Source: Mya arenaria (lineage: Eukaryota; Mollusca; Bivalvia; Myida; Myidae). Taken from it: DNA of 64,000 nt. Location of the stretch: contig NC_069122.1 in assembly GCF_026914265.1 (NCBI RefSeq), positions 31,299,473-31,363,472 of the forward strand. Reading direction: 5' to 3'. This document shows, piece after piece, positions 20,161-59,211 of this stretch (within the stretch, counting starts at the first letter, position 1; each line of letters starts with the position of its first letter). The notes under the pieces are model-generated. The model made no database searches, was not told where the DNA came from, and saw only the letters and a program-made list of their open reading frames with translations. Made by a program: the position numbers and the translations under genes.

Positions 20161-21324
20161 ATGCCACCTAAGAATTCGGCAAAAGGAAAGGGGAAAAACA
20201 AGAGAAAAGCGAACTCCCCACTGGAATGCCACGTCGACAATACAGACCAAACTGAAAAAGTGGGTGGGGTGAGTAGGACAAAATTGAAAAAAATAAATAG
20301 ATGTATTGACAATATTGCAAAAACATTAACTGGGAATACGAACGTTGACATGAACAGCAGTACTACGAATACAAATATGAGTTATGCTGCCCAGCCCACC
20401 GCCCAGCCCATGTATGGCATGCAGACCCCCCAGAACCCCCAGCATTATTCAGCGGGCTACTTATCTTCGCCGATGTCACAGTACAGTCTACCCCCGCCCA
20501 AGAACCCCTCCCCACAACCCGGTATACCCCCATGGGCCTCCGAACTCTTAGAAGACATAAAAGAACTCAAGTCCGTCCTTCCAAGTATAAATAAAATAGA
20601 ACAGACACTTTCTTTAATGAATGCAAAAATGTCAGATTTAGAAGGAAACGTCAAAAATATAGACATTAGAGTCACAGAAGTTGAAAATTCCTGCAAATTT
20701 ATTAGCCAAGGCTTTGAAAAGCATTCACAGGAACTGAAAACGGCCAGCGAAACAGTAAAAAAAGTTGACAAAAAATGTATTTCCCTTGATGCTACACTGA
20801 AAAAGGTAAATGAAGAAAATGAGACACTAAAAAGCAAAGTGCTTGACCTAGAAAACCGCTCAATGAGAAACAACCTGATGTTTAGGGGAATCCCTGAGCA
20901 AACAAACCATGGAAGCCCGGAGAACTGTGACAACTTGGTAAAAAAGTTCATATCCGATGAGCTTGAAGTCGATGCAACAGCAATGACATTTGAACGAGCC
21001 CATAGAATCCCGGCGACAATAGGTCCAAACACCAAAACGCCCAGGCCAATGGTTGTGAACTTCCACTATTTCCAGGAAAGAGAAAAGGTCATGGCAGAAT
21101 CGGCAAAACGTTCACAAGCCCTGCGAGGAAAAGGTTATGGTGTCGGGCCACAGCGTCCGAAGGAAATACGTGATGCACGGAGAGCACTTCGTGACGTCAT
21201 GGATAACGCTCGCGCCCGTGGACAGCACGTAAGAATGTATGGCGACAAACTCTACATTAACAACAAGCTGTATCGCCCACCACCAATGGAAGGAGAGACT
21301 GCGGAAGCCACTTCCGGGAACTAG
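20161..21324 (+). CDS. LINE ORF1 protein (RNA-binding, coiled coil)
   Basis: The 387-residue protein has a basic N-terminus (KGKGKNKRKA), a Gln/Pro/Tyr-rich low-complexity stretch (about 70-125), a predicted coiled coil (about 130-233, heptad-like K/E/L pattern ending DLENRSMRNN) and an RRM-like domain starting at LMFRGIPE (about 239), then a basic C-terminal domain. LENRSxRNNLxFxGIPE is the signature of L1-type ORF1 proteins, which trimerise and coat the element RNA. The ATG at 20161 follows an A-rich leader and gives the full domain order. The frame ends at a TAG (21322-21324) in the same frame as ORF2. Confidence 0.9.
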   Translation: MPPKNSAKGKGKNKRKANSPLECHVDNTDQTEKVGGVSRTKLKKINRCIDNIAKTLTGNTNVDMNSSTTNTNMSYAAQPTAQPMYGMQTPQNPQHYSAGYLSSPMSQYSLPPPKNPSPQPGIPPWASELLEDIKELKSVLPSINKIEQTLSLMNAKMSDLEGNVKNIDIRVTEVENSCKFISQGFEKHSQELKTASETVKKVDKKCISLDATLKKVNEENETLKSKVLDLENRSMRNNLMFRGIPEQTNHGSPENCDNLVKKFISDELEVDATAMTFERAHRIPATIGPNTKTPRPMVVNFHYFQEREKVMAESAKRSQALRGKGYGVGPQRPKEIRDARRALRDVMDNARARGQHVRMYGDKLYINNKLYRPPPMEGETAEATSGN

Positions 21325-24300
21325 GGACGTCAAGAGAAGCAACTGAAGATAGTTAGCTGGAATGTGAACGGTTTAGTGCGCAAATTAGCAGATCCTGATT
21401 TTCTATGTTACCTTAAAATCTATGATATTATTGTTTTGAGTGAAACCTGGTTATCGAAAAACACCGCTTTTAATTTAGATATTGAAGGTTATGATTGTAA
21501 ACATTTATTTGGAAACAAATCCAGAAATACACGTAAAGGACGTGCGAGTGGTGGATTGACAATTTATTATAAACAAGAACTCAAAACAAAAATATCGATT
21601 GAAGAACTGAATCAAAGTGGTATTATTTGGTTTAAAATTTGTAAAACTTTGCTTGAAATAGAAAAAGATGTATATTTTTGTGCTGTATATATTCCGCCCA
21701 AAAACTCTCGTATTATTAACCAAAATGAGATTGATTTGTTTGAATTGCTAGAAACAGATATAGAAAAATATCATAATAAAGGTATATTGCTCTTAACAGG
21801 AGACATGAACAGTAGAACATCGAACTGTAAGGATTTTATTGCATTTGATAGATACCTTGATGTCGATAATAATACTTTCTTGGATACAACAGAAATCCCA
21901 AAACGAAGTAATAAAGACGTAATTATTGATGACTATGGCAAAAAGTTAATAGCATTATGTAAGTCAACAAACTTATTGATTGGCAACGGTCGCCTTGACA
22001 ACGACGCAAACGTTGGCAACTACACTTTCAACGGTCTAAACGGATCAAGCACTGTAGATTATTTGTTGCTAAATAGGAACGACTTTGACTTTATACATGA
22101 CTTCGAAATTTCAGCTCCAAATGAATTTTCAGATCACTGTGCACTCATTTTTACATTGAAGAGCAACATAAATTCAAACGAAAATATTAATGATGATTCC
22201 GTGCCAGAAACATACATAAAATACGATGTAAATCAAACAGAACATTTTAAAAACGAAATCAACTCCAAAATTAACGTAATTACACAACTAAGATTAAACT
22301 TAGATGATAGGCAAATAGATGAATCAGTGAATAGCTTTGCTGAGATAATAAAATCATGTGCGGCTAAATCTTTTGGTAAAATAAAAACACCAAAAAGTAA
22401 AGAAAGTAAAACAACCCATCGAGCCAGAAATCCATGGTTCACTGAGGAATGTAACAATGCAAGGAAAGAATATAATACCCATAGAAATAAATTTATTAGA
22501 AACAAATCCCATGAAAACAGAATAGCTTATATACGGTACAAAAATATTTATAATAAAATTAAAACTAAGCATAAATTAAAATATAGGAGGGACGAGGGAA
22601 TTAAAATAACTAAACTAGCAAAAAAAGACCCAAAACAGTTTTGGAAATACATTAAAAAGCAATATAAGACTAAAAAAGCAACAGAAAAGCCACCGCCAAC
22701 AAATGAATTATTCGATCATTTCAATTCGCTCTACGGAGACGAACCAAACAGAAACAACCAACAAAATGAAAATACAACAGAAGGAAATATACAGAATGAA
22801 ACACTCGATAGCCCTTTTTCAATCACAGAACTAAAAAACGCAGTATTTTCACAAAATAATTCAAAAAGCCCAGGGCCTGATCAAATTACTGCAGAAATGT
22901 TTAAAGATACGTTTGAAATACTATCACCATTTCTGTTAGATTTATATAATAAACTATTGCGCGAAGGAGAATATCCTAAATCTTGGGGGGTTGGCATTAT
23001 TGTTCCAATTTTTAAAGGGGGGAATCCAGACGAAACCAAAAATTATCGTGGCATCACGCTTATAAACATAATTGCAAAAATATACTCAACTCTATTATCT
23101 GATAGATTATCCAAATGGGCAAAGGAAACACACAAGTTTATCGACAATCAATTTGGATTTCAAAAAGGCAAGTCAACAATCGACTGTATCTTTATTCTAC
23201 ACGCATTAATTACTCAAACGCTTGAAAAGAAGAAGAAATTATATGTGGCCTTTTTGGACTGGGAGAAAATGTTTGACAAAATTGATAGAACCTTCTTATG
23301 GCAAAAACTACTGAAAGAGAATGTTAGTTCAAAGTTAATTAAGGCACTAAAATCAATGTATTCATCCATAAAATCGTGCGTCAAAATAAACCAAAACGAA
23401 CATACAACGTATATAACTTCAAATATAGGGGTTAAACAAGGGGATCCTGCAAGTAGCATTTTGTGTTTATTTTTCCTCAATGATATAATAGATAGCATTA
23501 ATGTAGAAAATGAAAACATCATAACATTAGACCAAACAAAATTATTTATGTTACTCTTTGCCGATGATGCAGTGGTATTCGCCCACTCTCATCAATCGTT
23601 ACTGAACATACTTACACAAATACAGGATTACTGTGATATGTGGGGATTAAAACTGAATACAAGCAAAACTAAAGTAATGATTTTCGAAAAAGGACGACAA
23701 ACAACACATGATTTTGTCATAAACAACCAACCCATAGAAATCGTACAGTCTTTTAAGTATCTTGGAGTTCACCTTTTCAAAAATAATAATTGGTACAGAA
23801 CACAGAAAAGAATAGCACAGCACTCATCACACTCTTTGCACAATCTATTTATAATTTATAATCAAACGGATTTACCAATTTAAGAAAAAATAAAATTGTT
23901 CAACACATTAGTTGCACCAATACTAAACTATGGCGCAGAGATAATTGGATATCACGAATGTAAAGACATCAAACTAATCCATAACAAATACTGCAGAAAA
24001 CTTCTATGTGTAAAAAAATCAACACATATAGACGCACTAAATGGAGAACTTGGGATTCTCCCAATGGAAATACAAAGGAAAATCATTCTAATTAAATACT
24101 GGTCGAAATTACTTAACAGTAACCCAAACTCTTTATTATTCAAATCGTATAGTATGCTTAAAAATACAGTGGACGATGGATCAATTAATAAAGCCAACTG
24201 GGCATTTCATATAAAAAGCATTCTACAAAAATGCGGAATGAATGACTTATGGGTGAACCAAGCCAGAACTCAAATTAACACCACATTAATTATTCAAAGA

Positions 24301-24732
24301 ATAACAGATATCTATAAACAGTCATGGTACTCAAGAATAAACAACTCTAGTAAACTTGAAACATACTGTCTATTTAAACACGAATTTGTACTTGAAAATT
24401 ATCTAGACCGAATTATATGTAAAAAGTACCGAATAGCATTAACCAAATTTAGAACCAGTTCTCACACACTACAAATAGAAACGGGGAGATATAACAATAT
24501 ACCAAGAACACAGAGAATTTGTACAAACTGCAGTCAAAACCAAGTAGAATCAGAATACCATTTTCTTTTAGTATGTCCAAAATTTAGGGATGTACGTAAA
24601 CAATTCTTTAAACCATACTATTGCCACTGGCCAAATATACACAAGTTTACAAAATTATTATGCGAAGAAACCATTAACACAACCATCAATATGGCAAAAT
24701 ATATATACCATGCAAATAACCTAAGAACTTAA
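21325..24732 (+). pseudogene. LINE ORF2 (endonuclease-reverse transcriptase), one nonsense break
   Basis: This is the same frame as ORF1, directly after its TAG. It begins KIVSWNVNG (endonuclease motif I), then LSETW, TGDMNSR and FSDHCAL (apurinic-type endonuclease), and the reverse-transcriptase blocks SPGPDQI, NYRGITLINII, FLDWEKMFD, GVKQGDP and LLFADDAVVF (catalytic FADD), followed by FKYLGVHLF. A TAA at 23881-23883 interrupts an otherwise open frame that resumes to 24732, including a C-terminal Cys/His motif (CTNCSQNQVESEYHFLLVCP). Apart from that single nonsense codon no frameshift is seen over about 1,135 codons. No ATG occurs before the endonuclease core: the first codons are non-AUG, and the earliest internal Met is in the GDM motif. 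Confidence 0.9.
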
Positions 24733-35284: not shown

Positions 35285-35700
35285 TTAGAAACGTTCTGGG
35301 GGGTTTCGATTTCGCGATGAACGTCTCGGTTGTGAAGGCTCTTGTTCGTCCGTACGTACAGTGCCAGGACGGTAGAAGTCGTCGAAGTCGTCCTTGCTGT
35401 CGGAGTCTTGTAGCCTTATCAGCTTGAAAAAGGATGAATTGCGGGTGATTGACTTGTCTCCTCTTTTCGCTGTTATCATCGAACCGTTTGTCTTTGTAAT
35501 TTTATATGGCTGACTGTCGAAAGGTGTGGAGAACTTGTTTGTTTTGTGTTGTTTGACAAGTACAGAGTCGCCAACGTTAAATGTTTAAATTTTATTCTAA
35601 TCTGTCTTCCAAATAATAGTTCTGCTGGACTGTATTTTGTAGTCGCATGTTTTGTAGCTCTATAGTTGCGTACGAAATTGCATACATGTCTGTGCGCCAA
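35285..35700 (-). pseudogene. pol part 3: integrase C-terminal remnants
   Basis: Two overlapping frames (35476-35700 and 35285-35479) continue the integrase: NYRATKHATTKYSPAELLFG, then, after another shift near 35590, a chromodomain-free tail ending RRSSRNRNPPERF. This Arg/Pro-rich ending is usual for invertebrate Gypsy integrases. Confidence 0.8.
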
Positions 35701-36929
35701 TCTGCTTTTTGAGTTTTTGCTGCACGAATTACTTTTCCTATTGTTTTCATGAAACGCTCGCTTTCTCCGTTTGCTTGAGGCCAGATAGGGGTTATTTTTC
35801 TGTGTTTGAAACCAAATTGTTTTGAAAAGTTTTGAAAGTCTGCACTATTCATCGGCGGTCCATTGTCAGTTCTCAGTACTTCAGGTATTCCATATTCTGA
35901 GAATATTTTGTCAAGCTTCTCAATAACTGTTTTTGCATTAAGAGATGTTATTATTTCAACAATTGGGAATCTTGAAAAGTCATCAATCAAAACAAGAAGA
36001 TATTTTCCATCAGGGAATGGTCCACAGAAATCCATGCTCACTGAATCCCATGCCTGTTTTGGCATTTCAGTCATTTGAAGTGGTTCCCTGGAGTTTTTAT
36101 CAGTTGCTGCGAGATAGGGAATACAACTGTTACACAAGTCCTCAACCATTTTGTCCATTTTTGGAAAGTACACCTTTTCGCGCAATAGTTGTTTTGTCCT
36201 AACTATTCCTGGGTGTCCTTCGTGTGCTATTGAAATAGCCTTCTGTTGCAACTGTTTAGGTAACACAATTCTATTTCCATGCAAGAGAACTTCGCCGTTT
36301 TTGAACGTCACAACTGTCAGTTCATTTTTCACACGTGCAAGTGTATCTAGTACCGTATTTGTTTTGTAATTTGATTTCCACGAGGATTGTCTGACGTTTT
36401 GCATCACTTGTTGAAGGTCGTTGTCACTGCTTGTCTCATTGATTATGTCATGCAACGTCATCGCTTTTGGAACATCATGGTATGTAATGAATGACAGGTA
36501 TTCTTCTGCGATTTTTCCTGCGTTGCTTGCTTGCGTCTTTGTGACATCTGGGTGCCTACTTAGGTAGTCTGACATGTTTGATTCACCTGGCTTGTATATG
36601 ACATCAAAATCATAGGCTTGCATTTTCATTCGCCACCGTTCCAGTCTGGCTGGCGGCTTGGACTTCGGGTTTTTGTATATGTGTTCAAGCGCTTTTGCGT
36701 CTGTTATGACGGTGAATTTGTGTCCAAAGAGGTATATATGCCAGTGTTCAATTGCCCATACGATAGCTAAGTTTTCTTTCTCGGTCTGAGAGTACCTTTT
36801 CTCGGTATCTGTTAATGATTTGCTTGCATAGCTAACTACTTTCCCTCCTTGCAGCATGATTGCTGCTATGCCTACGGGGCTTGCATCTGCAACAATTTGT
36901 GTTGTCAATTTTGGATCGAAATATGTCAT
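35592..36929 (-). pseudogene. pol part 2: RNase H and integrase
   Basis: 445 open codons: an RNase H region (IVADASPVGIAAIM, ENLAIVWAIEHW, TDAKALEHIY), then an integrase zinc domain (HEGHPGIVRTKQLL ... CNSC) and catalytic core (SMDFCGPF, RTDNGPP, GESERFM). The frame is lost near 35695, where an adjacent register continues the integrase. Confidence 0.9.
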
Positions 36930-36956
36930 TACAGTTTCACTGCCGATTTGAGTTTA

Positions 36957-38435
36957 TCAAAAGCATTTTGCTGTCTTTCTTCCCAAACGAATTTGACATC
37001 TTTCTTCACGAGCATTCACAAAAGGTTCTGTCGTTGTGGAGTAGTTTGGTATGAATCTGGAGACATAGTTTGTCATTGCGAGGAAGCTTCGTACTTCTGA
37101 TGCGTTTTGTGGAGCAGGTGTGTTTTTGATTATTTCACACTTTTTCTTGTCAGCAGAAAATCCGTTTTCACTGAAACTATAGCCGAAGAATTCAAGCGTT
37201 TTCTTGTTGAATTCACATTTCTGTTTGTTCAGTGTGAGGCCTTTTTCCTCTAGACGTCGTAGGGCGGCTGCCAGTCTACTGTCGTGTTGCTCCTGCGAAT
37301 TGCCATACACGATTATGTCATCGCTAATGTTTTGTACACCTTCAAGTCCTTCAAGTGAGGTCTGTATTGCATTTTGGAAAACTTCTGATGGCGCACATGT
37401 TAATCCAAAGTTTAGTCTTTTGTAACGTCTTAGACCAACATGTGTAGTGAATGTGGTTATGTTGCGTGATTTCTTTGAGATTTCAAGTTGATGGTATCCC
37501 TGATTTAAATCCAATTTTGAGAATATTTTTGAACCATTTAAGTCCACAATAAGATCGTCTATTGTCGGTATAATGTGTCGAGTCCTTTTAATGGCTTCGT
37601 TAGGAAGGCGCATGTCTACACAGATACGTATTTCATTGTTTTTGCTCTTCGGTTTCGGTGCTACGACAATCGGTGATACCCAGTCTGTTGGTCCATCTAC
37701 CTTTTCGATTATATCCATGTCTTCGAGCCTTTTGAGTACAATTTCCACCTTTTTTCGAAGGTGAAATGGTATTCTTCTATGTGGTTGCACAACGGGTTGA
37801 ACTGTATTGTCTACAAATAACTCAATTTGTGTGTCTTTCAATTTCCCAATTCCTGTGAATACCTTCGGAAATTTATCGCATATTTCACTTTTGCTTGTCA
37901 TTGAATATATTTCTGGAACGACTTGCAGTGACACTGATGTAGAGTATGATAACAGATTGCCACTGTTTCCTTTCGTTACGTATATCATGGCTGTCGTAAA
38001 CTTGTCTTTGGTTTCTATCATTGCTTGAAACTGGCCCATAATTTTGACAGCTTCAATTGAACCGTATGCGTATACTTTCGTATCCGTTTTGTTTAATTTT
38101 GGCTTCGGTTTCATGGCGTTGTATGCTTTTTCATCAATGACATTTATCGATGACCCGGTGTCTACGAGCATTTTTAGGGCATGACCTTCGACTTTGACTT
38201 TGATTGTAGGTCGCTTGCAGGATATGTCTGGCTTGTTTGAATTTATTGCAAGTCCAAATGCAAATTCGTTACTGCTTTTATCATTGTCCGAAATTTCACT
38301 GTCTGAACAATTATCGGTACCCAATGTATGCACTGGCTTTGACTGTTTGTGCTTTGAACGACAAACAATCTCAAAATGATTCATTTTCTTGCAAAAATTA
38401 CATATTTTGCCGGCAGCGGGACATTGGCCATTCAT
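36957..38435 (-). pseudogene. pol part 1: zinc knuckle, protease, reverse transcriptase
   Basis: 492 open codons: a CX2CX4HX4C knuckle (CNFCKKMNHFEIVC), aspartic protease active site VDTGSSINVID, then reverse transcriptase with RICVDMRLPNEAIKR, SKLDLNQGYHQLEI, FGLTCAPSEVFQ and the catalytic ISDDIIVYG. The frame is lost after the thumb, near 37010; continuation in other frames shows at least two indels between here and the RNase H part. Confidence 0.9.
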
Positions 38436-39106
38436 GTGTGGATACTCCTTACCACAGTTTCTGCAGCTTCGTGTTTTCTGTTGTGACTGACGGTAAGTGT
38501 TGGTAGACTGTCGTTGTTACGATGGTTTGGTTTTCGCTTTTGCCTGATTGCACAGGTGTTGTAACTGTTGTTGTGGTTGGCTGATTGTTCTATCTCGCTT
38601 GCGTTTTTGTCAGATAGTTCTAGAGATCGCGCTTCTTTGATTATTTCGTCTAAAGATATTTCTGATCTGAGCACTTTGCGCCTTAGTCTTGTTGACGTAC
38701 AGCCTTGTATGATTTGTGACTTAATTTCCTTGTCTGTATTTGCAAACTCGCAGTGTTCTCCAAGCTTTCTGAGTCGTGTGTGGAAACTGTCCAAGTTTTC
38801 GTGAGGTTCTTGCTTTGCCTGTCGAAACTTGTACACTTCGAACTCAATACTTTTCTTGGGTGCAAAATACTGGGTTAGTGCTTGCTTGGCAGCGTCAAAC
38901 GTTTCCTCGACGTCTGGAAGTGTTGTAAAAATGTCATAAACATCTTCACCAGCGTAGTGCAAAAGTAACGCTCTTTTGCGTTTAGCGTCCTTGACATCCA
39001 TACAAACTAGCATGATTTCTAGTCGACCTAACCACTTTTTCCAGCGACTGTCCACTGCTGTTTCAGTGACATTGAATGATGGGAATACTGGTAATCCTTG
39101 AGCCAT
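38432..39106 (-). pseudogene. gag of the Gypsy-type element
   Basis: The 224-codon frame starts MAQGLPVFPSFNV and includes RWKKWLGRLEI, LLHYAGEDVYDIF and YFAPKKSIEFEVYKFRQ, a pattern typical of Gag capsid regions of Mag-like Ty3/Gypsy elements in invertebrates. It ends in a frame different from that of the downstream zinc knuckle. The correct frame for CRNCGKEYPHMNGQCP starts just before the Gag frame ends, so either a programmed shift or an indel lies near 38480-38510. Confidence 0.8.
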
Positions 39107-39211
39107 TTTTTGGTAAATAATCAGTCCTACTAATTAATTACACAGCACAGTTTTTTTTTTACACAGTTAATCCGCTTTTCATGTGTTTTACACTTTTATC
39201 CTCGTCGCCAT

Positions 39212-45604: not shown

Positions 45605-48145
45605 AACAAGAGCGGTCACAGACAGCTATATCCCCCACGTCATGGGGACATTTTTTGTAACGAAAGCCAATCAATGGTAAGGGTATTTCTCAGGAACATA
45701 AGAAATGTGTAAAATTAAGAAAGGGCAATAACTCTTTCAAAAAAGGGCAATAACTCTTTCAAAAATGGTCAAATCAGGAAAGCCCGACAATATGCGCTGC
45801 TTCACTTTATGATCATCAATCTGTGAAAGTTTGGTAGAAATCGCATGAAAACCTAAGAGGATTTGCGAAGAAACCAATTTTAAATGTAAAATAAGCAAAG
45901 GGCAATAACTCTTTCAAAAATGGTCAAATCACAAAAGCCAGACAATATGCCCTGCTTCACTTTATGATCATCAATCTGTAAAAGTTTGGTAGAAATCGCA
46001 TGAAAAACGTAAGAGGAGTTGCGAAGAAAACAATTTTAAATGTAAAATAAGCAAAGGGCAATAACTCTTTCAAAAATGGTCGAATCAGGAAAGCCTGTCA
46101 GTATGCGCTGCTTCACTTTATGATCATCAATCTGTGAAAGTTTGGTAGAAATTGCATGAAAAACGAAAGAGGAGTTGCGAAGAAACCAATTTTAAATGTA
46201 AAATAAGCAAAGGGCAATCACTCTTTCAAAAATGGTCAAATCAGGAAAGCCCGACAATATACGCTGCGTCACTTTATGATCATCAATCTGTGAAAGTTTG
46301 GAAGAAATCGCATGAAAAACGTAAGAGGAGTTGCGAAGAAAACAATTTTAAATGTAAAATAAGCATAAGGCAATAACTCTTTCAAAAATGGTCAAATCAG
46401 GAAAGCCCGACAATATGCGCTGCTTCACTTTATGATCATCAATCTGTGAAAGTTTGGTAAGAAATCGCATGAAAAACGTAAGAGCAGTTGTGAAGAAAAC
46501 AATTTTAAATGTAAAATAAGCATAGGGCAATAACTCTTTCAAAAATGGTCAAATCAGGAAAGCCGACAATATGCGCTGCTTCACTTTATGATCATTAATC
46601 TGTGAAAGTTTGGTAAAAATCGCATGAAAAACCTAAGAGGAGTTGCGAAGAATCCAATTTTAAATGTAAAATAAACAAAGGGCTATAACACTTTCAAAAA
46701 TGGTCGAATCGCAAAAGCCCGACAATATGCGCTACTTCATTTTATGATCATCAATCTGTAAAAGTTTGGTAGAAATTGCATGAAAAACGTAAGAGCAGTT
46801 GCGAAGAAACCAATTTTAAATGTAAAATAAGCAAAGGGCAATAACTCTTTCAAAAATGGTCAAATCAGGAAAGCCCGACAATATGGGCTGCGTCACTTTA
46901 TGATCATCAATCTGTGAAAGTTTGGAAGAAATCGCATGAAAAACGTAAGAGGAGTTGCGAAGAAAACAATTTTAAATGTAAAATAAGCATAAGGCAATAA
47001 CTCTTTCAAAAATGGTCAAATCAGGAAAGCCCGACAATATGCGCTGCTTCACTTTATGATCATCAATCTGTGAAAGTTTGGTAAGAAATCGCATGAAAAA
47101 TGTAAGAGGAGTTGTGAAGAAAACAATTTTAAATGTAAAATAAGCATAGGGCAATAACTTTTTCAAAAATGGTCAAATCAGGAAAGCCCGACAATATGCG
47201 CTGCTTCACTTTATGATCATCAATCTGTGAAAGTTTGGTAGAAATCGCATGAAAAACCTAAGAGGAGTTGCGAAGAATCCAATTTTAAATGTAAAATAAA
47301 CAAAGGGCTATAACACTTTCAAAAATGGTCGAATCGCAAAAGCCCGACAATATGCGCTACTTCATTTTATGATCATCAATCTGTAAAAGTTTGGTAGAAA
47401 TTGCATGAAAAACGTAAGAGCAGTTGCGAAGAAACCAATTTTAAATGTAAAATAAGCAAAGGGCAATAACTCTTTCAAAAATGGTCAAATCAGGAAAGCC
47501 TGACAACATGCGCTGCTTAACTTTATGATCATCAATCTGTGAAAGTTTGGTAGAAATCGCATGAAAAACGTAAGAGGAGTTGCGAAGAAAACAATTTTAA
47601 ATGTAAAATAAGCATAGGGCAATAACTCTTTCAAAAATGGTCAAATCAGGAAAGCCCGACAATTTGCGCTGCTTCACTTTATGATCATCAATCTGTGAAA
47701 GTTTGGTAGAAATTGCATGAAAAACGTAAGAGCAGTTGTGAAGAAACCAATTTTAAATGTAAAATAAGCAAAGGGCAATAACTCTTTCAAAAATGGTCAA
47801 ATCAGGAAAGCCCGACAATATGCGTTGCTTCACTTTATGATCATCAATCTGTGAAAGTTTGGTAAGAAATCGCATGAAAAACATATTAAGAGGAGTTGCG
47901 AAGAAACCAATTTTAAATGTAAAATAAACAAAGGGCTATAACTCTTTCAAAAATGGTCGAATCGCAAAAGCCCGACAATATGTGCTGCTTCACTTTATGA
48001 TCATCAATCTGTAAAAGTTTGGTAGAAATTCCATGAGAAATGTAAGAGGATATGCAAAGAAATGAATGTGGGACGGACGGACGGACACACGCACGCACGC
48101 ATGCACATACGCACGGAATCGCGCCTACTTTTACTATATCCCCTC
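45605..48145 (+). mobile_element. Helentron-like element with about fifteen 156-bp tandem units
   Basis: AACAAGAGCGGTCACAGACA then 'gctatatcccccacgtc' at the left. The core is about fifteen units of about 156 bp ('gggcaataactctttc', 'gatcatcaatctgtgaaag', 'caattttaaatgtaaaa'). A four-unit block of about 625 bp (46212-46837) is repeated at 46838-47460. The right side has a GGAC/CACG microsatellite (48063-48115) and 'tatatcccctcgcc', but the second hairpin arm is missing, so the 3' end is truncated where a Harbinger-like arm begins. Frames within it are repeat artefacts. Confidence 0.8.
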
Positions 48146-48222: not shown

Positions 48223-48430
48223 TTTGGCCTGAATCTTGTTTGGGAGGAAGAGTGCATCTTTAAATACTTACTTTTCCCTAAATAACTGGAGGTTACAAGG
48301 TACTATTACAATTTATTTGTCAATCTCCTATGTACAAATTAGGTTAGAAGTCCTGAATATTTTCCAATGTAATTTCACATGAAGGAAATAAACCTCTTTT
48401 TTTTAAATAAATTTGGTGAATTTAGCTTTT

Positions 48431-48790
48431 CCCGTACGAAAATTCCAACTGTAATACAGCTGTAAAAGACCCGTAAATGAGGAGTAAAGTCACATTTACA
48501 GGTGTAAACCGCCTGGAAACTGAATTTGAGCAGGAAAAGCATTGATATTTACAGGCGTAATTTCTTATTTTACAGGCGGAATTTTTTATTTTACAGGTGT
48601 AAAAAAATTCCAACTGTAAATTTGAACTTAGAATATTTTCATGACTTCAAATTTACATCTGAGTGCAGCTATTTTGACCTGTAAAATTATTTACAGCTGT
48701 AAAATTGAACTTAGAAAATTTCCGAGCTTTTAGTAAAGAAAAGTTAACTTACAGCTGTAAATTTGAACTTAGAAATTTTCTGAGCTTTTT
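48431..48790. repeat. left terminal/subterminal repeat zone
   Basis: After the terminal 24 bp, more than ten copies of ACAGGTGTAA, ACAGCTGTAA, ACAGGCGTAA and similar occur in both orientations up to about 48765. Many are self-complementary (TTTACAGCTGTAAA), so each can be a palindromic protein site. Confidence 0.85.
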
Positions 48791-49227
48791 CGTTGTATAA
48801 AAGATATTTCTTAGTACAAGATTTTTACTAACAGTAATACTAAACATAAGTGAAGTAATTGCCTCCCTTGGATAATTTTAAAGTCATTCACTTCATTGTT
48901 TGATCACTAAGAAATAGACACTGTAGTATGTGGTAAGTTTCACAATTATTTAGGTTATCAAACATAAACAACAATATTCTGAATACACATTTAAACTAGT
49001 TTATTATACTTCAATTTCAATCGGTAAATACCCAGCATATTGTTAAATTATATGAAATGTCATTAAAACAGTTGATAAACGTATCAGACATAATTTGATA
49101 CGAGTGTATTAATAACATAAAATATGTATGATTGATAATGCAACTTACACATGCATAATCTTCTGTGAAAATCTGAACATGATAAAAACTATAAAAAATA
49201 CACATACAAAATGACGTATTCAAGGTA

Positions 49228-52200
49228 TCAGTCACATTCAAGATTGTTTGAAAACTTGCAAACATAAGCTGTTTTTGATCCGTCTGTGTTATTGAATGAA
49301 ATAAACAATACACTCTCTAATATGCATCTCAATGGTATAACTACAACATTTTTTGATTCAGTTACCGAAACAATGCTACTGTTACCAGATGAATGTTTAC
49401 ATGAGAGCTGTTCTACAACAGCAAAGGTGTTATTTTCCAAGTCATCATTTCTATCCACTAGTAAAAAATGTCTGACACGTCCGTACAATACGTTTTTTTC
49501 TAAACCATGCACAAAATGATAACTTATTGCTGAATTGTCACGTTTTTTCATGCGTCTATAAGAAAGTCCATAAATTAAGCTATCATTATATTCCAGTCGT
49601 TTAAAGTATTTGATACTTTCACCAAAAACAGGGTCATATCCTACTGTTCTACACAAAGCGGCATGTTCTTCATCAGAAATAAAAAGGGCTTTAACAGCAC
49701 CAAGTACGTATATGTTAGTTGCAATCTTTAATCCTCTTGTCAAAATGTTTGGATTCTCGATTGAATTATAGAGCGTTTCAAGTTCTGAGCCTCGCACAAT
49801 TGTCTTAACTTTTAGCTCTGGTAGTTTTTGCAGAAATGATATGCCTGTTATAATTTGATTGTCAATGTTTTGTGTCCCTCGTATCATTTTAAGTAAAACA
49901 CCATTTTTATCCTCAAATGGAAAGCAGCTATGGGTAAAGAGAGGTCCCAATGTCCGTACACTATCTGCCAAGTGAACAAGCTGATGGAGATTCAGTGTCA
50001 TAAAACAAGCGCCATATAATGTTGAGAATTGTTTAACAAACTCAAATAGCATTGACTCGGCTGAATTGACATCACTCACTGTTGAACCAGACATAAGTAA
50101 AATATGCATCGCATTAACAAGCAATAAAAAGTGAACAAATCTACTGGTGTCTAAAATGCCCTTAAGAACTGGAGCACCATAGTAAAGAAGAAATGACCTG
50201 TACTCTGATGCTTTCCAGTATTTGATATCTGTCTGAATTGATCTTGGCAATCTTGAAATATTTAGTGTTGGCTGTATTGACGTTAATCTGGCATCTACCT
50301 CCGAAACACGATGAATGAAATTGTATGGCTTTCCTTTGTGAGTGCTGGAAAACCACAATGATAACAAAAGTTTCTGTATTCCTAATAAGACGCCGTGCAT
50401 ATAGTCTATTGCAATACCGTCCACTATATCAAATTTTGGGAAAAAGGTGAGCCAAGATGGTCCTTTGACTCCATTTACCATGTATTTTCTAACACTTGAT
50501 TCTTGATTATCCAACGCCTTTTGCGAATCTGACAAAACCATTTCTTTTGTCCGAGCTGGTAATTTAGGTCCATCAGAGTGGAAAGGAAATACATGGGTAT
50601 GCCCTTTACCAACTTTTGCTGTTTCACCACTTTGTAGGCATTTCCAGCATGAAAATGATCCATTAAACTGAATCCCATTACAGAGAAGACATCTTGCTGG
50701 CAAGTCTGCTGTGCCACAAAGAAGATATGCTTTGCATATAAATTCACCGCGATCTGGGGACGAAACATTTAATCCTTTTTCAAAAGTTTTAAATGTTTTA
50801 AGGAATGGTTGTAAAAATGTTCCCATGGCTGGTTTTGATTTACCAAACCATAATCCTGCCAATATCATATTTTCTGCTTTCATTCTTAGTTTGTATGGCA
50901 ATTCATTAATTACAAGGAATAACGGCCAGACTGAAACATTACTACTTTTAAAAACAGATGCACCATCAGTGTTAAAGGTGAATGAAATATTATCTGGATT
51001 AGCAAGTGGTCCGTCATTGTCAACATATTTCTGGTAAAGACTGCCATCATAAATGTCACAAAATTTTTCTGGTACAGAGTTCTTGAAGCGATGCTGTAAG
51101 CTGTTGTAGAATCCTTCTTGTTGTAATAAAGATGCTATCTGTTTATCTATTGGCATTTCGAGGAAGTATTCACCATCTTGGTTCAGTTGCTTTTTACATG
51201 CACCATATGGACACTGATTAATTTGACTGTTCACAATAAATCCAAGGCAATGTCCACAGTAGAAATGTTTTACTATAGGGTTTTTCAAATTTTTGAAAAA
51301 TGATTTAAAGCCATGTAAACTTGTGCACATTTTATGTCCATTAGGAAGTGCAATTGCAAAGATATTCAACAGCTGCTGAATACCATCTCCAACAATATTA
51401 TGTTTTGTAAAAAACAGTGCAAGCAATAACATAATTGCTCCCACTGTCAATGAAGCTCCTGGATATAATGGATCAACATCAGATTCGGCTGCTACGTGCT
51501 GAGAGTTCAAAATCTCACTTTTATCTTGACTATTAAGGTCTAAATCTGAGTCATAGTCAAACAAGTTAGGGATGTCATCCTCCTGTTCAAGTACATTTTC
51601 TGCATTAATGTCCTCCTGTGCAGGTACATTTTCCAAATTAATGTCCTCCTGTGCAGGTACATTTTCCAAATTAATGTCCTCCTGTGCAGGTTCGTTTTCC
51701 GAATAAATGTCATCATGTGCAGGTACATTTTCCGCATAGATGTCCTCCCGAGCAGGTTGATTTTCTGAATGTCTGTCCCTCAGGAGTGAGTGCGCATATA
51801 CATGTCCAGAAGGACTATCATCCTCCAAGCCGGACACATCTGCATAATCAATGCCTACTTCTAAAGGATGAGTTCTTGCGCCAGCACCCTAAAATGACAA
51901 AATAAGTAAATATAACTCATATTGCTTCCAATATAATGCTGAATTAAATCAATATGATCAAAATAAAAATTGAGATTATCAGACTTAGAACATGACATTA
52001 AACAATATGTGTTGAATCACGGACCTATAAACCATGATCACGGTTTATAGGTCCGTGGTTGAATGTAAGTACACAGACATATTACACACATGATACGAAA
52101 GTAAGGATTAAAGAGATTATGCTGTAAGAACTAATATGTATACATCCCTCCTTAAAAAATGTGTTTTTAATTCATTTCTTCTGTTTTCAGGTATTTTTAC

Positions 52201-52814
52201 TACTATCTTTTACAGTCTGTTTTAGAAGAACTTAAAAGGGTTTGATGTTTGTCCGAATTTTTATTTATCCGAATTATCTAATTACTTAATACGGTAAGCT
52301 GGGTTTTTTTATTGATTGTTGTAGAAAATACTTTAATATAATTGTATTGGAATATGAATGAAGGTATTTCATGCCGATTGATTGTTATTAGCTCTACTGC
52401 GAAATGAAGAATATCGAATGTCTGAAACATTTCTTCGTCTTTGTTGTTGTTTACAATCGCGAAAATAGATTACATTTCAATTATCATCGGGTTGCTCTAA
52501 ACAAGCCGTAGGTTTCGTTGTTTTCGTAATTATTGTTTCTATTAGTCAAACATTACACAACCTCCCCAAAAGACATCGGGATATTACAATTTACAAACTG
52601 ATTGAATACTTACATTCGTCTGCTCTTCGTCTGTTACGGCTTTAATGGTATTGGGACGGCTTCTTTTGCAGAGATCATCGACCTCTAAAACTCCATCAAC
52701 ATTTTTATTTAAAGTAAGGATACCATCGTCTGGATCATTTAAACTTATTTCAGGATTTCCAATGCCGCTTTTTAATTTTCTTTTCCCGTACGGTCCTCTG
52801 CGTTTATGTTCCAT
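49228..52814 (-). CDS. TNP2/Transposase_21-like transposase, 2 exons, 953 aa
   Basis: Exon 1 is 52814-52614 (67 codons, starts MEHKRRGPYGKRKLKSG, basic) with donor GTAAGT; exon 2 is 51888-49228 with acceptor ttttAG. Both join in phase 0. Known family features: zinc-ribbon-like CGHC ... CPYGAC (about 278-298), FTFNTDGASVFKSS (D375, likely first catalytic Asp), VWPLFLVINELPYKLR, a second Cys cluster CLLCNGIQFNGSFSCWKC (467-484), IDYMHGVLLGIQKLL (D562), and MTLNLHQLVHLADSVR with CFPFEDKNG (E726 region). This order matches TNP2/DDE transposases of EnSpm/CACTA elements, which cut and join the ends. Catalytic roles are inferred from motif position. Residues about 112-170 are 10-11-residue acidic repeats (ENVPAQEDIN). 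No stop or frameshift. It probably acts in the nucleus on the element's own ends. Confidence 0.9.
51585..51770 (-). repeat. 33-bp in-frame coding tandem repeat
   Basis: About six units of 33 bp ('gcaggtacattttcc' + 'aaattaatgtcctcctgt') encode the 11-residue acidic repeats near the N-terminus of the transposase. The period is a multiple of three, so copy-number change keeps the frame. Confidence 0.85.
52018..52057. repeat. 40-bp palindrome flanked by GTTGAAT direct repeats
   Basis: CACGGACCTATAAACC and its exact complement GGTTTATAGGTCCGTG enclose ATGATCAC. GTTGAAT occurs immediately before (52011-52017) and after (52058-52064). It lies in the intron of the transposase gene. The structure is either a tiny foldback insertion or an RNA/DNA hairpin site. 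Confidence 0.85.
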
Positions 52815-53299
52815 ATTCTTGTTACTGAGTTATATTTGTGCGTTACTGTACATGTACATATGAACGCTGGGAGTAGGGTCCAGCAAAGCGTGTTTGCTGA
52901 AGAAATTTGCGGCCTGAGCTATTTGGCTTATCAGTCAATGGAGCGAGGTGCACCACAGGGAAGGTGCGGTATTATCATGAACATATCCAAGTTAATCTTG
53001 CGGATTACGCAAAACATATTACTTATTGATATATGAAATTATCACTACTGTACTGGTATATCCTTGTAAAATGAATGACGCATTTAAATTTATAATTCCT
53101 TGGTTTGTTGGAGTTTTATGATGACCAACACATTTAATGTATAATTAATTATACCCCGCTTGTGCCTTAGTGCTATACTCTGGCCAGCGAAGGCACATGC
53201 TGGGTATAATTGATTACACATTGAATGTGTTGCATCAATATCGCCCGTTGGACCACATACATTTTGAACCAATCGTGTCTTGTAGCTAAAGGTCTAAAA
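52815..53299. promoter_or_regulatory. divergent promoter region with 107-bp foldback
   Basis: The 485 bp between the two start codons must drive both genes. It contains an inverted repeat at 53126-53232: arms of about 31 bp beginning CAACACATTTAATG and CAACACATTCAATG (on opposite strands) run through 'attatacccc', with further pairing of 'tgtgcctt' and 'aaggcaca' inside. This may be a small MITE or a shared regulatory structure. No clear TATA box is positioned for either gene. Confidence 0.5.
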
Positions 53300-56200
53300 A
53301 TGTTCGCTTGCATCTATTTTAAAGAGGATTCTACGTTAAGTGTCGTGAATGAGAAAGACAAAGATCTTAAAATTATTGATGGCTTTGTTGAGAGGGCCTC
53401 AGTTGAAATGACGTGGAGAAGACCGGGAAAAACAAAGGAGTTATTCCATGGGACAATTGTGAAGACGGGAGGTTAGTAACATTGACAAACGCGTTTGACT
53501 TTATCAATACTTTTAATATTTCTAAATGAGTAAATTTGTTTTCAAAATTTGTAAAAAAAAAGAACAACATCAATTTGATAAACAAAATAATTATAAAAAC
53601 GGGAAGTTGCAATGCTAGTGTGAGTCGATCAAGTGAAGTGGTGTAATAGAACAATGATTTTTCTTTGTATTCGGCACCAAATACAGATATCAAGCTGGCA
53701 TCCAGTAATATTGGACTATCTACGAATGCATCCAAAAGTTTACTGGCCGTTTTTTTTACCACAAAATGAATCAAATTAATCAGCGCCACATTGACGATAA
53801 CGATTTTAGACCGGTTCGAATAATTTGTTTACTGAATCATGCATCTATTACAGCGATTTTGATTGGACGTTATGTATAGCTGCGTACCAATCAGAATCAT
53901 TGTAATTTGAACCTGTAGCCTTTTCAAGCAAGATGGCGGTATAAGTAAATAAATGAATTGTGAATATTTTGTAATGAACTATTTAAATCGAAATTGTTAC
54001 ACCAAAATATTATTTTAGCAAAGAATGATAAGTTAAATCTTAATGAAACAGTATGCCTATACAGTTTGTGAAAAAATATTTAACATGACCTCTTATATAA
54101 TGTTTTTCGAAACTGAAAACATGAACACGGATAGTACACGACACTTTTGAGTTTGTTGATATGCTTTGCATGTTCAAATGATTTTTTGTCACGTTGCCCA
54201 AAACATAGCGTTCATTAGTCCATTCGATTAATTTGTTTTTACTGTTAATTCTTAAATGACAGATTGACAGTTTCATTGTATCTTGTCATAAGTAAGTTAT
54301 TAAACATTCTAACTTTTGGTCTTAATTGGATATGTATCGGGGGCTGAAACAGAATCAATTTAATCAATCCATACAATGTTATGTCAACTGCATTTCAGAA
54401 GATGAGAACAGTCTGCTGTCATATGCTACACAAGCATACAATGCAATTCTGAAAGGGAAAGCTCTGTCTGATGGCATACAGGGAGCTCCCGAAGAGCTGT
54501 ATTCCTTCAATGTTAAACGAGGCATCAAGTCTGGATCTAAGAGAGAAAGGTCCAAGACAGAGAGGCTGAGGGCCAGTGAAATTCAGGATGACCAGCTTAG
54601 TCCAAAAAAAAAGCAAAAAAAAGAAGTGGCAAAACAACTATTGCCAAAGGAAAAGAAACAAGAAACATCTGAAATTATGGGACCTAAATCTCCATCGACA
54701 GCTCTTAAAACTGCAGCTTTACAGACTGGACGATTGATGCTAGACATGCATCGTCAGTTTGATTTAGGGAGTGACACTGAAAACACTGCTGGCATGCCTT
54801 TATCTAAAAATAAAAATGAGACAACCTCACAGTGCGACCAGTTATTACCAGTACTTACAACTACTCCTGTAAAGGACACAATGCAGCCAAATCAAATTTG
54901 TGAACAAGTAACATCACCAGTTTCACTTCAAAAGACATGGACTGCCTGTCAGTCAGCAATGGACATAGTGAATTACATGCCGCCAGCATCTGACAGCAAC
55001 AGGCAGTATATTCCAGGTACTGAAATGTTGCTTTCTCCATATTTTTATTTCTTATCGAAATAAGTTCTTGGCTCGCTTTAGTAATTAAGTTGTTTCAATG
55101 GGTTTTCTTATTGACCAAAAGCAAAACATCAAATTGTCAAACGTCAAAATCTGAATTATAACAATTTTTAAGTACACGCCTAGGAGTCATAAGTCTTATG
55201 AAAGAATCCCATTTAAAGGGCTGGCCGGAGTGACAGCGCTATTTAAACTATCAAGACAAATTTCCTGCTTTTAAATCTCACATCATTATAATTTGAGAAC
55301 TTCCATGTGGATTTCTTTTCAGCTCCAACACCTGAAGTGTTGCAGACACTGCAGGCAATATGTCAACCAGAATTTGTCACCTTCCTGAGAAGTCTTGTCA
55401 CTCATTTCAAAAATGACAGCGGTGGAAATTCTTGCTCTCAGGTAAATTGAACAAATAAGGGCAACTCCATGATGTATAAAATTGGAAATAAGTACTTTTT
55501 AGTATTATGCTGCAACAATCTTTTAAACTGAAAACACACAGATCAGCAATTTGACAAAAAACATATTTAATTATTATATACATACATGTGCAAAATTTGG
55601 AATATGAAACCCATCTTCATGCAATTGATATTTTATTTAGTCGCAATATAAACTCTTGTTCAAAATAGTAGGAATAAGCTCTGAAAAGCACATTTTTCTT
55701 AAACCAGTAGTTACGTGTAGAATTTTTGAAAATGAACAAAAAAATAGGGTTTCCATTTTTGATTGCAACATAAATTCAGTAATTTATGCAAATGCAATAG
55801 TTCATTCATTATTCAGATAAAGTAAAATGTCTAATTGTTGAAAATCTGTGCATGTGCAGCCTTAAGAAAAATGGAGTGACCGGTCTATTTATATCCTGTA
55901 ACTCAGGTATAACTTAGAGCTATGATAGAGAATTTTTAATAAAGATCTCCCAATTTAAACAACTTTATTGTAATCTTACAGTCTTACAGCCAGACAAGTT
56001 TCAACCAGGCAAGTTTTTTAATGGATCTGATGGATCGCACTGACGCGCCTACACATACTAGCCTGTATGAACAACCCGGATTGAATGACAGTCTAAATTT
56101 GTCTTCACCAATCCAATCCAGCACTCCTGCCAAAGTTTCATACAAAACCGGACTACTGGCGACTGTAGTAAGTACTCTCACCTAAAAGCTAATGATTACA

Positions 56201-58134
56201 AAACATTGATTCAGGCTAGCTTAATTGGTTCTGGGCTCAGTTTCAAGTCTAGCTGAATCACTTTGATGATTTGATTGAGAAATCTTTCTAATCAAGTACA
56301 CCTAAGTCTTCCCCCCACCACTGAGTGGGAAAGCTGTTGACAAATTATTGGCATTGTTCTTTAGGCCTTTTATGTGCTGTTTTAAACTTTAAAGTGTGTC
56401 AATCAAAAAAGACTTCAGCTTTAATTGTACTGCTACCATCATTTTTATTACCTACATGTCAATAATTGGATTTTTGTAAATGACTGTTCAATTTTATTTT
56501 TTGCACCTAGTTAAGTACTATCAGAATAAATATAAGTTAATTCAAGACACTGAAAATGTGTATCACAAATTGTTTAATGTTAAATGTTACAATTGGAAAA
56601 ATGCCACATATCTCTAATTGTTGAAAGGTACCACAAGAGACAAGCCAATCATCAAGTCAGCACAATCCTAGCGCAGCAAGATACCAATCAAATGCGGTGA
56701 GTTGCCTATTTAAAACATGAAAGAATGTTCTTTTCTATTAACATTTATAGCCAATAAAGTCCATTGTTGTCATTTCACTTAAATTAGTAATTAATGTTTA
56801 ATCTCAAACAAGTTATAAATAGAATTTTAAAACCAGATTTTTTTTTCAACAATCCAGGCTTGTTATGTTAAAATTTTCAAACTGGATCTAATGAGCATTC
56901 TATGGTTGCATTTTATTGTGTTAATATATTTGTTTAATATATTTATTTAATTTCTTTTCAAGGATGTTTCCATGCCATCTGTACGAAGATCCCCGAGGAA
57001 GCCAAAAACTGTTAATTCATCAGATATGGTCAGTAACAACATCTGTTTAAGAACTAGATATTCATTAAAGGTACTCTACACCAGAATAGCATCAAAAAGA
57101 TAATTTCTGTAACGAATCTCAGGACAATTATTTAATAAAAGGTTTTACTTTTTGATATCATAATTGTAAAAAAATAAATTGAGTGGGAGACCGGGTTCAA
57201 ACCGGTGTTGCCAAAATTGCAGTCCTGTGTTGTCTCCACTGTGCTATGAAGACTTACCCTAAACTGTTATATATAAATATTTAAGCTATATATACCTAAC
57301 TTGGTAATATCTCAGGATAGACCAGCCAAGTTTTTAGGCATGTAATTTTGGTTTTTAATCATTTGTATATCCTATTCAATATAGAACCTTTCTTAAGAAT
57401 TTCACATATTTGTTTACTCTTGGCACAAATGTTTAAATTTCTTCAATCATGTCTGATACTAGTTCTTGTTATTTTGTGTTGAAATGATAGCAGTTGCTGT
57501 TTGTGATTGCAGGTCAAACTCCTGGAACATAGTGATATACTGATAGACAGAGATCTTAAAAGAAAGGCGTGCTCTGCAGCGAAGACAAAATCTGGTAAGG
57601 AGGGATCAGTCCTTCTTTACCGTCTCTGTAGTGGGCTTTTTTCTATCAAGGAAATGGCAACTTGCAGAGGTCTAGGCATAGGCCAAGCAAAATCAGACCC
57701 ATCTAGGCCTACCCTGGATCAAGCAAAAGTCAAATTACTGAAAGGTTGGTACATCCTTCCCCCAACAATAAAAATAGGGACAGCCAGCAATATTTGATTA
57801 GTATACAGATATTATGTATAGCATACAGATGCGCTCAGATTGAATTAATTATCATATCTGAATTTAGACCTAAAACATACATGTATCAATGATAAACGAT
57901 AATTGTGCTATGTTAGTTATTGTTCTTTTATTATTGTATAATTAATTCTAAAGATGATGCCAATTATTCATATTTCTCTATACAGTTGTGTAATGCTGAA
58001 TTCTTGTTGATACAGATTATGTTGTTACATGGTGCAAAGCCGAGTCCAAACGTATACCAACAGAGGCGGAGATGAATGGGGCGATTACCGAAAGAATTGG
58101 CTATGCAAGAAAGCAGATGAAAGCAAGAAAATAG
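53300..58134 (+). CDS. BEN-domain protein encoded by the transposon, 8 exons, 526 aa
   Basis: Exons: 53300-53471, 54399-55016, 55323-55441, 55982-56167, 56628-56696, 56963-57028, 57513-57744, 58016-58134. All introns are GT-AG, phases are 1,1,0,0,0,0,1, and the total is 1,581 nt (527 codons with TAG), open throughout. The N-terminus (MFACIYFKEDSTLSVVNEKD) resembles the small N-terminal domain of BEND5-like proteins. A Lys-rich stretch (SPKKKQKKEVAKQ, about 125-137) could be a nuclear signal. The middle is Ser/Thr/Gln-rich. The last two exons (about 411-526) form a BEN domain: RDLKRKACSAAKTKSG, LLYRLCSGLFSIKEMA, LDQAKVKLLKDYVVTWC and a basic end ARKQMKARK. BEN domains bind DNA. Placement between TIRs suggests it binds the subterminal repeats. 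An in-frame ATG 25 codons upstream (53225) overlaps the foldback; 53300 is preferred for its family-like start. Confidence 0.85.
57186..57252 (-). repeat. tRNA-like SINE head in an intron
   Basis: On the minus strand TAGCACAGTGG fits a pol III A box and GGTTTGAACCC a B box about 45 bp later, followed by 'ggtctcccactc'. This is a typical tRNA-derived SINE start. It lies in intron 6 of the BEN-domain gene and points away from that gene's direction. Confidence 0.55.
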
Positions 58135-58633
58135 AACAATTAATATTAGTCATGTGCTTAGGATCTGGTTAGAAAAAAAATACTCTGGAATATTATAGCA
58201 AATTCTTAGTACATTTGACTGATAAGTGGACCAATATTTTTGTAACATTTATGCATTATGAAAGTGACAATAAGAAATGCCATTAATGACCTTTGCTTAT
58301 GTTGACAGAAAGAGTTTTGCCCGTTTTGTATTCATTTTAGAATTTTTTAATAATGAATTGTAGTGATGTTTGAATGTGTAAACTAATTTAGCATTGTTGT
58401 TGAATTTCAAAATGGTCATGACACAATCATTTGTTTGGTTTGCTATGTAAACTTCTTTTAAAATTTATATTCATGCATATATATTAAGAATGTTGAATTT
58501 TATTGTGTGGTGTCCATAACCTTTTTAAGTCTTGTAATTCTATGAAAAATTACTATAAATCAAAATCCATTCAAACTGTAATGTTTTTTTTTAATTATGA
58601 ACAAAAATAAATGGTTTAATTGCATTATTGTTT

Positions 58634-59029
58634 GACTGTAAATTCTACACCTGTAAATCTGAAATTTGGTCTGTAATTTTTACACCTGTAAATCAGAAAT
58701 TACGCCTGTAATTTTTACACCTGTAAATCTGAAATTACGCCTGTAAATTCTACACCTGTAAATCTAAAAAGGACGCCTGTAATTTCTACACCTGTAAAAT
58801 CTGAAATTACACCTGTAAAATATTGATGAAAATTACGCCTAATTTAAATATTTCGCGCCATTTTACAGGTCATTTACGCCTGTATTACAGGTCTTTTACA
58901 CCTGTAAATGAACTATGATTGAAGTGAATTCCAGCTGTATTCTTAAAATTACAGCTGTAAAATCATGAAAAATTACAGGTCTTTTACAGGTCTGTTACGG
59001 GTCTTTTACAGTTGGAATTTTCGTACAGG
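58634..59029. repeat. right terminal/subterminal repeat zone
   Basis: About twenty copies of ACACCTGTAA, ACGCCTGTAA and ACAGGTCTTTTA-type motifs, then the terminal repeat ending at 59029. Mostly inverted relative to the left zone, as expected for an element with long repetitive ends. Confidence 0.85.
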
Positions 59030-59211
59030 TTGGATTAAACATTTACCATGTTCAGGGCGGGACACTATCAGTAACCTGAGACACCCAATTTTCTGACAGG
59101 ATTACCTAGTGTTTGAAAATCGGACTCCTTTGCTATCGATAATCGAATCGAATCGGACCAAGCATTTCGATTTACTATCGGACAATAATCGAAAGTTCAT
59201 AATATCAGTAA

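Follow-up and report, generated by a model that had tools for sequence, protein, structure and literature searches.

We examined a 64,000-nucleotide stretch of the Mya arenaria genome (NC_069122.1, positions 31,299,473 to 31,363,472 of the forward strand; hereafter the window), in which positions 48431-59029 form a 10,599-bp DNA transposon carrying a tnp2 transposase gene and a divergent BEN-domain gene. Since the pair sits in one mobile unit and recurs in a diverged family on contig C7, the BEN protein is almost certainly an integral part of the transposon. It probably acts as an end-binding factor, which is the role of TNPA in plant elements. The first-pass annotation of this DNA had paired the two genes in one element, and both the exact mobile unit and the recurrence on C7 support that pairing. 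TRC-type elements are already known, and judging from the sequence it is the BEN-domain partner in one of them that appears to be new; no title or abstract opening in the literature found describes such a pairing, with most subscription papers and Repbase lying outside its coverage.

The element ends in 24-bp terminal inverted repeats (TIRs) that agree at 23 of 24 positions, the right end departing from the complement of CCCGTACGAAAATTCCAACTGTAA by a single change (CCT), and a TT target-site duplication (TSD) lies just outside them, in line with the matching 24-bp ends claimed at the outset. The termini read CCCGTACG and CCTGTACG, the one beside the transposase gene starting with CCC and the one beside the BEN gene with CCT. 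The 21-bp core of the ends occurs exactly at two places in the window and once more internally with two mismatches, where 0.01 occurrences at up to three mismatches are expected by chance. The genome searched comprises 1.216 Gb in 18 contigs, and the window sits on C1 (63,369,314 bases), as does a second full copy (hereafter copy 2, C1:31104798-31115396). Identity between the two spans 48431 to 59030, that is, one common base past the end of the element.

Target duplications in plant CACTA elements are 3 bp long. In the window element the duplication is TT and in copy 2 it is TA, and in both the third base breaks it (TTT/TTG and CTA/TAG, respectively), so a 3-bp TSD does not occur. Membership of the plant-type CACTA (Spm/En) group was rejected because there is no CACTA terminus and the duplications are of 2 bp. 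The four features examined for the TRC/EnSpm (CMC) group are all present, namely a tnp2 transposase, a D-D-E triad with C(2)C and H(3-4)H motifs, a TIR starting with CCC and a 2-bp TSD. Thus, of the EnSpm/CACTA-like assignment first made, the tnp2 transposase and the subterminal arrays stand, but the CCC termini and 2-bp TSD point to the TRC branch instead of the plant type. By its sequence features, the window element is classified in the animal CACTA-related (TRC) branch, whose members are described with CCC termini and 2-bp duplications (PMC1636069), as a cut-and-paste DNA transposon of the autonomous type.

Copy 2 carries both genes and shows no base difference from the window element over 10,599 bp, and the flanks of the two are unrelated. 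Because of this identity on unrelated flanks, the element moved recently, as had been surmised from its intact appearance, and the suggested search for further copies with both genes and the same ends was answered by copy 2 itself. With assumed rates of 1e-8 to 1e-9 per site per year, zero differences give a 95% upper limit on the age of about 14,000 to 140,000 years. The two full copies lie on the same chromosome, 243 kb apart, for which the probability is about 0.0004 for a random pair in the genome, and this closeness suggests a local jump. The same closeness, together with the repeat-rich surroundings and the common flanks of two pairs of shorter copies (L024/L025 and L027/L028, which are probably duplications), could be taken to mean that the genes are chance neighbours between repeats in an immobile unit, or that copy 2 is a segmental duplication or an assembly error. 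We regard this as extremely improbable, since identity halts at the inverted ends, the flanks are unrelated, the duplications differ (TT and TA), and 21 other end copies exist, with perfect TSDs in 8 of the 15 that are two-ended. Segmental duplication as the source of copy 2 was accordingly rejected on its unrelated flanks, and host genes adjacent by chance were rejected on the identical copy 2 and the pair on C7.

The shorter copies came from a genome search with the left end, which gave at least 25 matches (23 left ends and 2 right ends of the full copies); a right-end search gave at least 50, which lie at the majority of the left-end loci and at a few others. The 21 left-end places beyond the full copies (L013-L033) were covered from that end into the copy for 5 to 15 kb, and the two-ended copies within these stretches are 2.5 to 5.8 kb long. 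When the window element and copy 2 are included, a perfect 2-bp TSD is present in 10 of 17 two-ended copies and absent from 7, and the chance of such a count is about 1e-8. These counts kept the copies with duplicated flanks, L025 being among the 17 and L028 being without a right end. No transposase protein match at an expectation value (E) of 1e-3 was found in any of the 21 stretches. A BEN protein match to residues 411 to 456, encoded by exon 7, was found in 17 of them and was absent from L014, L020, L027 and L028. From their sequence, these 17 copies are read as nonautonomous and as descended from an element in which the BEN gene was already present.

The transposase gene consists of two exons on the minus strand and encodes 953 residues, and the BEN gene consists of eight exons on the plus strand (53300-58134) and encodes 526 residues; both have GT-AG junctions and open frames. 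Two uninterrupted divergent genes stopping short of the motif zones had been described initially: they are divergent and open, and end 797 and 895 bp from the element ends, before the motif zones, but both contain introns. The Pfam Transposase_21 domain scores 47.2 bits (cut-off 28.6; E 2e-12), and 294 relatives of the transposase were found at E 1e-3. In the numbering of the spliced protein, D375, D462, E726, C481-x2-C484 and H702-x3-H706 are invariant in 12 of 12 aligned transposases. The two aspartates and the glutamate are the putative catalytic residues, assigned by motif, and C(2)C and H(3-4)H motifs between the second D and the E are the pattern of EnSpm and its kin (PMC12730594). Four further cysteines (C278/C281/C293/C298) are also conserved. 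A scan of viral contigs using the Mytilus transposase found no relative. The part of the gene encoding the N-terminal region contains a 33-bp tandem repeat of 5.8 copies (window 51578-51770), giving 11-residue repeats rich in acidic residues, and the intron contains a perfect hairpin with 16-nt arms and an 8-nt loop (window 52018-52057).

The partner protein has BEN as its sole Pfam match up to E 1 (9.6e-6, 26.2 bits against a curated cut-off of 23.2), and NACC1 is matched by sequence at E 0.0027. The BEN domain takes up residues 405-526 or thereabouts. A Mya arenaria protein in the database is 100% identical to the partner protein over 93% of its length, and that entry is listed under both LOC128231069 and LOC128215906, as would be expected of two element copies. 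In the predicted model of the Mya protein (P0001), residues 54-382 have a predicted local distance difference test (pLDDT) score below 50. A Mytilus edulis relative (P0002) matches the clam protein at 53% over residues 1-58 and 33% over residues 264-523. By the Pfam BEN profile, P0002 and a second Mytilus protein, P0003, score 13.0 and 14.6 bits, under the cut-off. The C-terminal domain of the predicted P0002 model is confident (pLDDT mostly 76-90), and its seven best PDB chains in Foldseek are BEN-DNA complexes (NACC1, Bsg25A, insv, BEND6 and BANP), of which the top one reaches E 4e-3 at a probability of 1.00. On the strength of this model, we assign a predicted BEN fold to P0002. NACC1, insv, Bsg25A, BEND6 and BANP share this predicted fold but are host proteins, whereas the clam protein is encoded inside a transposon and has an N-terminal domain in common with a Mytilus relative.

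The diverged family was recognised on C7, where a transposase match (C7:36077086-36079242) is 49-50% identical to the window transposase and ranks next after the two identical full-length ones. An independent search with the BEN protein found BEN exons beside it on the opposite strand (C7:36070405-36075292), with identities of 52% over residues 1-57, 33% over 48-132, 36% over 412-490 and 51% over 485-525. Examined from both sides as far as the middle (C7:36071201-36076499), the C7 element measures 10,469 bp (C7:36069927-36080395) and has divergent BEN and transposase genes as in the window. Its ends read CCCGTACGAAAT (transposase side) and CCTGTACGAAAT (BEN side), and the termini CC[C/T]GTACGAAA are common to both elements, with C on the transposase side and T on the BEN side in each. 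Since this older relative in the clam genome has the same pair, the BEN protein is probably a working part of the element. A 614-base query of C7 exon 8 and the adjoining end gave 40 matches including C7 itself, and 24 of the 39 others, at 80-85% identity, align with the query over its full length and stop exactly at the terminus, thus forming a swarm of C7-family copies that keep the BEN gene end. On C9 (32473594-32476853), three C7-family end copies follow one another at constant intervals of 1,326 bases, which suggests that a nonautonomous copy became a tandem repeat there.

A genome protein search with the transposase gave 58 matches at 41 loci, from 51 of 243 candidates scored, and all 71 of 71 candidates were scored in the search with the BEN protein. 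A BEN match lies within 2 kb at three of the 41 loci, namely the window, copy 2 and C7. Copies that carry the transposase but never the BEN gene had been named beforehand as evidence against the pairing; in the event, all three scored loci with a single transposase match of more than 700 residues have BEN within 2 kb. In Mytilus edulis, the transposase relative P0010 is 59% identical to the window transposase, and P0010 and the BEN relative P0002 both have entries in which the longest contig is given as 912,883 bases; we take both genes to lie on one contig. These observations bear on the view that the BEN gene was taken up from the host a single time and is carried as passive cargo with no role in transposition. 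BEN domains are found in many host proteins, no BEN match lies near 38 of the 41 scored transposase loci, and fungal TET/JBP genes have been passed between transposon lineages (PMC12730594). We nevertheless consider passive cargo improbable, because the diverged C7 family has this gene too, likewise placed divergently and between matching termini, the Mytilus relatives of both proteins each list the 912,883-base contig, and the window BEN gene is open across eight exons.

The ends bear on the function of the partner. The palindrome TTACNSSNGTAA occurs at 12 places, every one within the two end zones, and is absent from the rest of the element and from 53.4 kb of other window sequence; in 500 shuffles of the ends it reached a count of at most 1. 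The subterminal motif zones noticed in the first-pass annotation are therefore real, and arrays of subterminal repeats at both ends are a plant-type feature that the window element shares. Among the copies, with L025 and L028 left out on account of having the flanks of L024 and L027, motif columns are more conserved than spacers at the left (94.3 versus 87.3%; 5 of 275 circular shifts as good) and at the right (90.7 versus 85.6%; 12 of 275). The two families differ in their motifs: in 840 bp of ends each, CTGTAA occurs 31 times in the window element and 2 times in C7, [CT]TGGTT 0 and 19 times, and GACGC 1 and 17 times. Shuffled window ends contain at most 4 CTGTAA, and shuffled C7 ends contain at most 7 [CT]TGGTT and 4 GACGC. 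AACCAGCTGGTT was also seen by eye in the C7 ends; the palindrome patterns counted there did not match it and were not used. Such a difference between families is as expected if each family's own protein reads its own ends. We tentatively extend this to an animal transposon lineage in which BEN proteins might be specificity factors co-evolving with their own ends and reading no others, the pairing perhaps predating the clam-mussel split. The half-sites concerned might then be TTACAG-CTGTAA in the window and TTGACGC / AACCAG in C7, an equally tentative assignment.

We propose that both genes would be transcribed outward from the central spacer, which is presumably a two-way promoter. The BEN protein would bind palindromic subterminal sites of the TTACAGCTGTAA type at both ends, bring the ends together, and recruit or stabilise the tnp2 transposase. 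The transposase would then cut at the terminal CC[C/T]GTACGAAA and insert with a 2-bp duplication, and nonautonomous copies with both end zones would be moved in trans. TNPA and TNPD of maize Spm do likewise, TNPA being probably unrelated to the BEN protein. The sites bound by BEN domains are short and palindromic or nearly so, in agreement with TTACAGCTGTAA.

The main alternative is that the BEN protein acts on chromatin or transcription, by anti-silencing or by repression of the transposase, while the transposase alone recognises the subterminal sites. The best-matching solved relatives (NACC1, insv, Bsg25A, BEND6 and BANP) are mainly transcriptional or chromatin factors, the transposase's own cysteines C278/C281/C293/C298 could bind DNA, and the motif change goes along with transposase divergence too. 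In fungal EnSpm elements, the TET/JBP gene is thought to aid escape from methylation (PMC12730594). However, the intergenic promoter region holds no copy of the half-site, and palindromic arrays at both ends would suit an added DNA-binding partner, so that we judge this alternative unlikely, though less so than passive cargo.

Several observations weigh against an integral, end-binding BEN partner. At 38 of the 41 scored transposase loci, there is no BEN match within 20 kb, and the next nearest lies at least 39 kb away; thus the partner is either dispensable for some tnp2 elements or too diverged there to detect. Three further loci have a transposase stretch at 50% identity or more. One is a fragment on C15 (L037), whose two best DNA stretches over the transposase are 87-89% identical; it has no BEN match in the 10 kb examined, though the fragment is truncated. 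The other two, on C9, reach 50% over 143 residues only and lack a BEN match within 39 kb. On C7, the transposase is interrupted by five stops, a stop also lies in one of the four BEN matches (residues 48-132, E 0.007), and the flanks show no perfect TSD (TA/AA). With two families only, the motif change could equally follow the transposase, and the conservation of motif columns is weak evidence, since the copies are related and not independent. None of the Foldseek matches of the P0002 model reaches E 0.001. Finally, the half-site CTGTAA/TTACAG is not found in the 485-bp spacer, so promoter control of the TNPA type is not mirrored.

The spacer gave only chance-level results in a scan for bacterial-type promoters. 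Just upstream of the BEN start codon, an imperfect inverted repeat with arms of about 41 nt (window 53126-53232) could be a small insertion or belong to the promoter.

Compared with known systems, the window element is closest to SmTRC1 and animal TRC elements in having a Transposase_21 transposase, a TIR starting with CCC and shorter deleted copies (PMC1636069). In SmTRC1, a 2-bp TSD accompanies 7 of 14 copies, against 10 of 17 here (PMC1636069). The difference is that the window element has a separate divergent gene encoding a recognisable BEN-domain protein. The SmTRC1 authors wrote in 2006 that the spliced product SmTRC-PrA must do the DNA-binding job of TNPA, but reported no protein resembling SmTRC-PrA from other animal or fungal elements (PMC1636069). 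With maize Spm/En and plant CACTA elements, the window element shares the tnp2-type transposase, subterminal repeats at both ends and nonautonomous derivatives (PMC1636069), and probably also a second DNA-binding protein. In contrast to them, it has BEN instead of TNPA, no CACTA terminus and no half-site in the spacer, and its two genes are divergent where the plant elements have one alternatively spliced unit. Kolobok lineages also carry accessory genes, but these are nucleases, a helicase and KolX (PMC9587614), and the main text of that paper nowhere contains the word BEN. Fungal transposons carrying TET/JBP, including EnSpm, likewise have an accessory gene, but it is a dioxygenase (PMC12730594).

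Among papers found for the BEN domain, PMC5704228 names it nowhere but in its references, whereas work on zebrafish DUF4806 genes calls DUF4806 a BEN subtype (PMC11075544). Two Hydra species have 69 and 54 DUF4806 genes against 0-6 in five other cnidarians, and the table of those counts also lists transposase-related domains (PMC7642931); DUF4806 may mark other transposons with BEN-type partners. The clam BEN protein is a concrete TNPA-like candidate, and DNA complexes of its domain class have been solved. Because both full copies are identical, a direct test is feasible, and the genome provides a natural specificity swap in its two families, whose subterminal motifs differ. If the proposed role is true, a BEN specificity factor would fill, in animals, the place that TNPA has in plants. 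Should transposons be served by BEN proteins, some animal BEN-domain genes may be transposon genes or transposon-derived. The features of the element are collected in Table 1.

Table 1 Features of the window element, in window positions.
Feature	Positions	Strand	Remark
Left TSD copy, TT	48429..48430	.	partner at 59030-59031
Left 24-bp TIR, CCCGTACGAAAATTCCAACTGTAA	48431..48454	+	transposase side
Left subterminal zone	48449..48760	.	5 palindromes TTACNSSNGTAA and more CTGTAA half-sites
Transposase exon 2	49228..51888	-	includes stop codon; Transposase_21, Pfam 2e-12
Transposase intron	51889..52613	-	GT-AG
Transposase exon 1	52614..52814	-	ATG start
Spacer between divergent start codons	52815..53299	.	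485 bp
BEN gene exon 1	53300..53471	+	N-terminal domain, present in Mytilus too
BEN gene exon 2	54399..55016	+	
BEN gene exon 3	55323..55441	+	
BEN gene exon 4	55982..56167	+	
BEN gene exon 5	56628..56696	+	
BEN gene exon 6	56963..57028	+	
BEN gene exon 7	57513..57744	+	BEN domain, first part; portions persist in nonautonomous copies
BEN gene exon 8	58016..58134	+	BEN domain end; includes stop codon
Right subterminal zone	58576..59011	.	7 palindromes TTACNSSNGTAA; 35-bp and 11/22-bp motif repeats
Right 24-bp TIR, reading inward CCTGTACGAAAATTCCAACTGTAA	59006..59029	-	BEN side
Right TSD copy, TT	59030..59031	.	

An Rfam scan of the window gave no match. Elsewhere in the window, a 156-bp satellite of about 15 copies with 92% matches (45742-48062) stops about 370 bp before the element, and other arrays have units of 43, 66, 145 and 291 bp. 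A non-LTR-type (long terminal repeat) retroelement at 20161-24729 on the plus strand has endonuclease/phosphatase and reverse transcriptase domains within a single open stretch of 852 residues (21325-23880). The coding region of an LTR-type retroelement at 35595-39133 on the minus strand has PNMA-like, protease, reverse transcriptase, RNase H and integrase domains in three open stretches.

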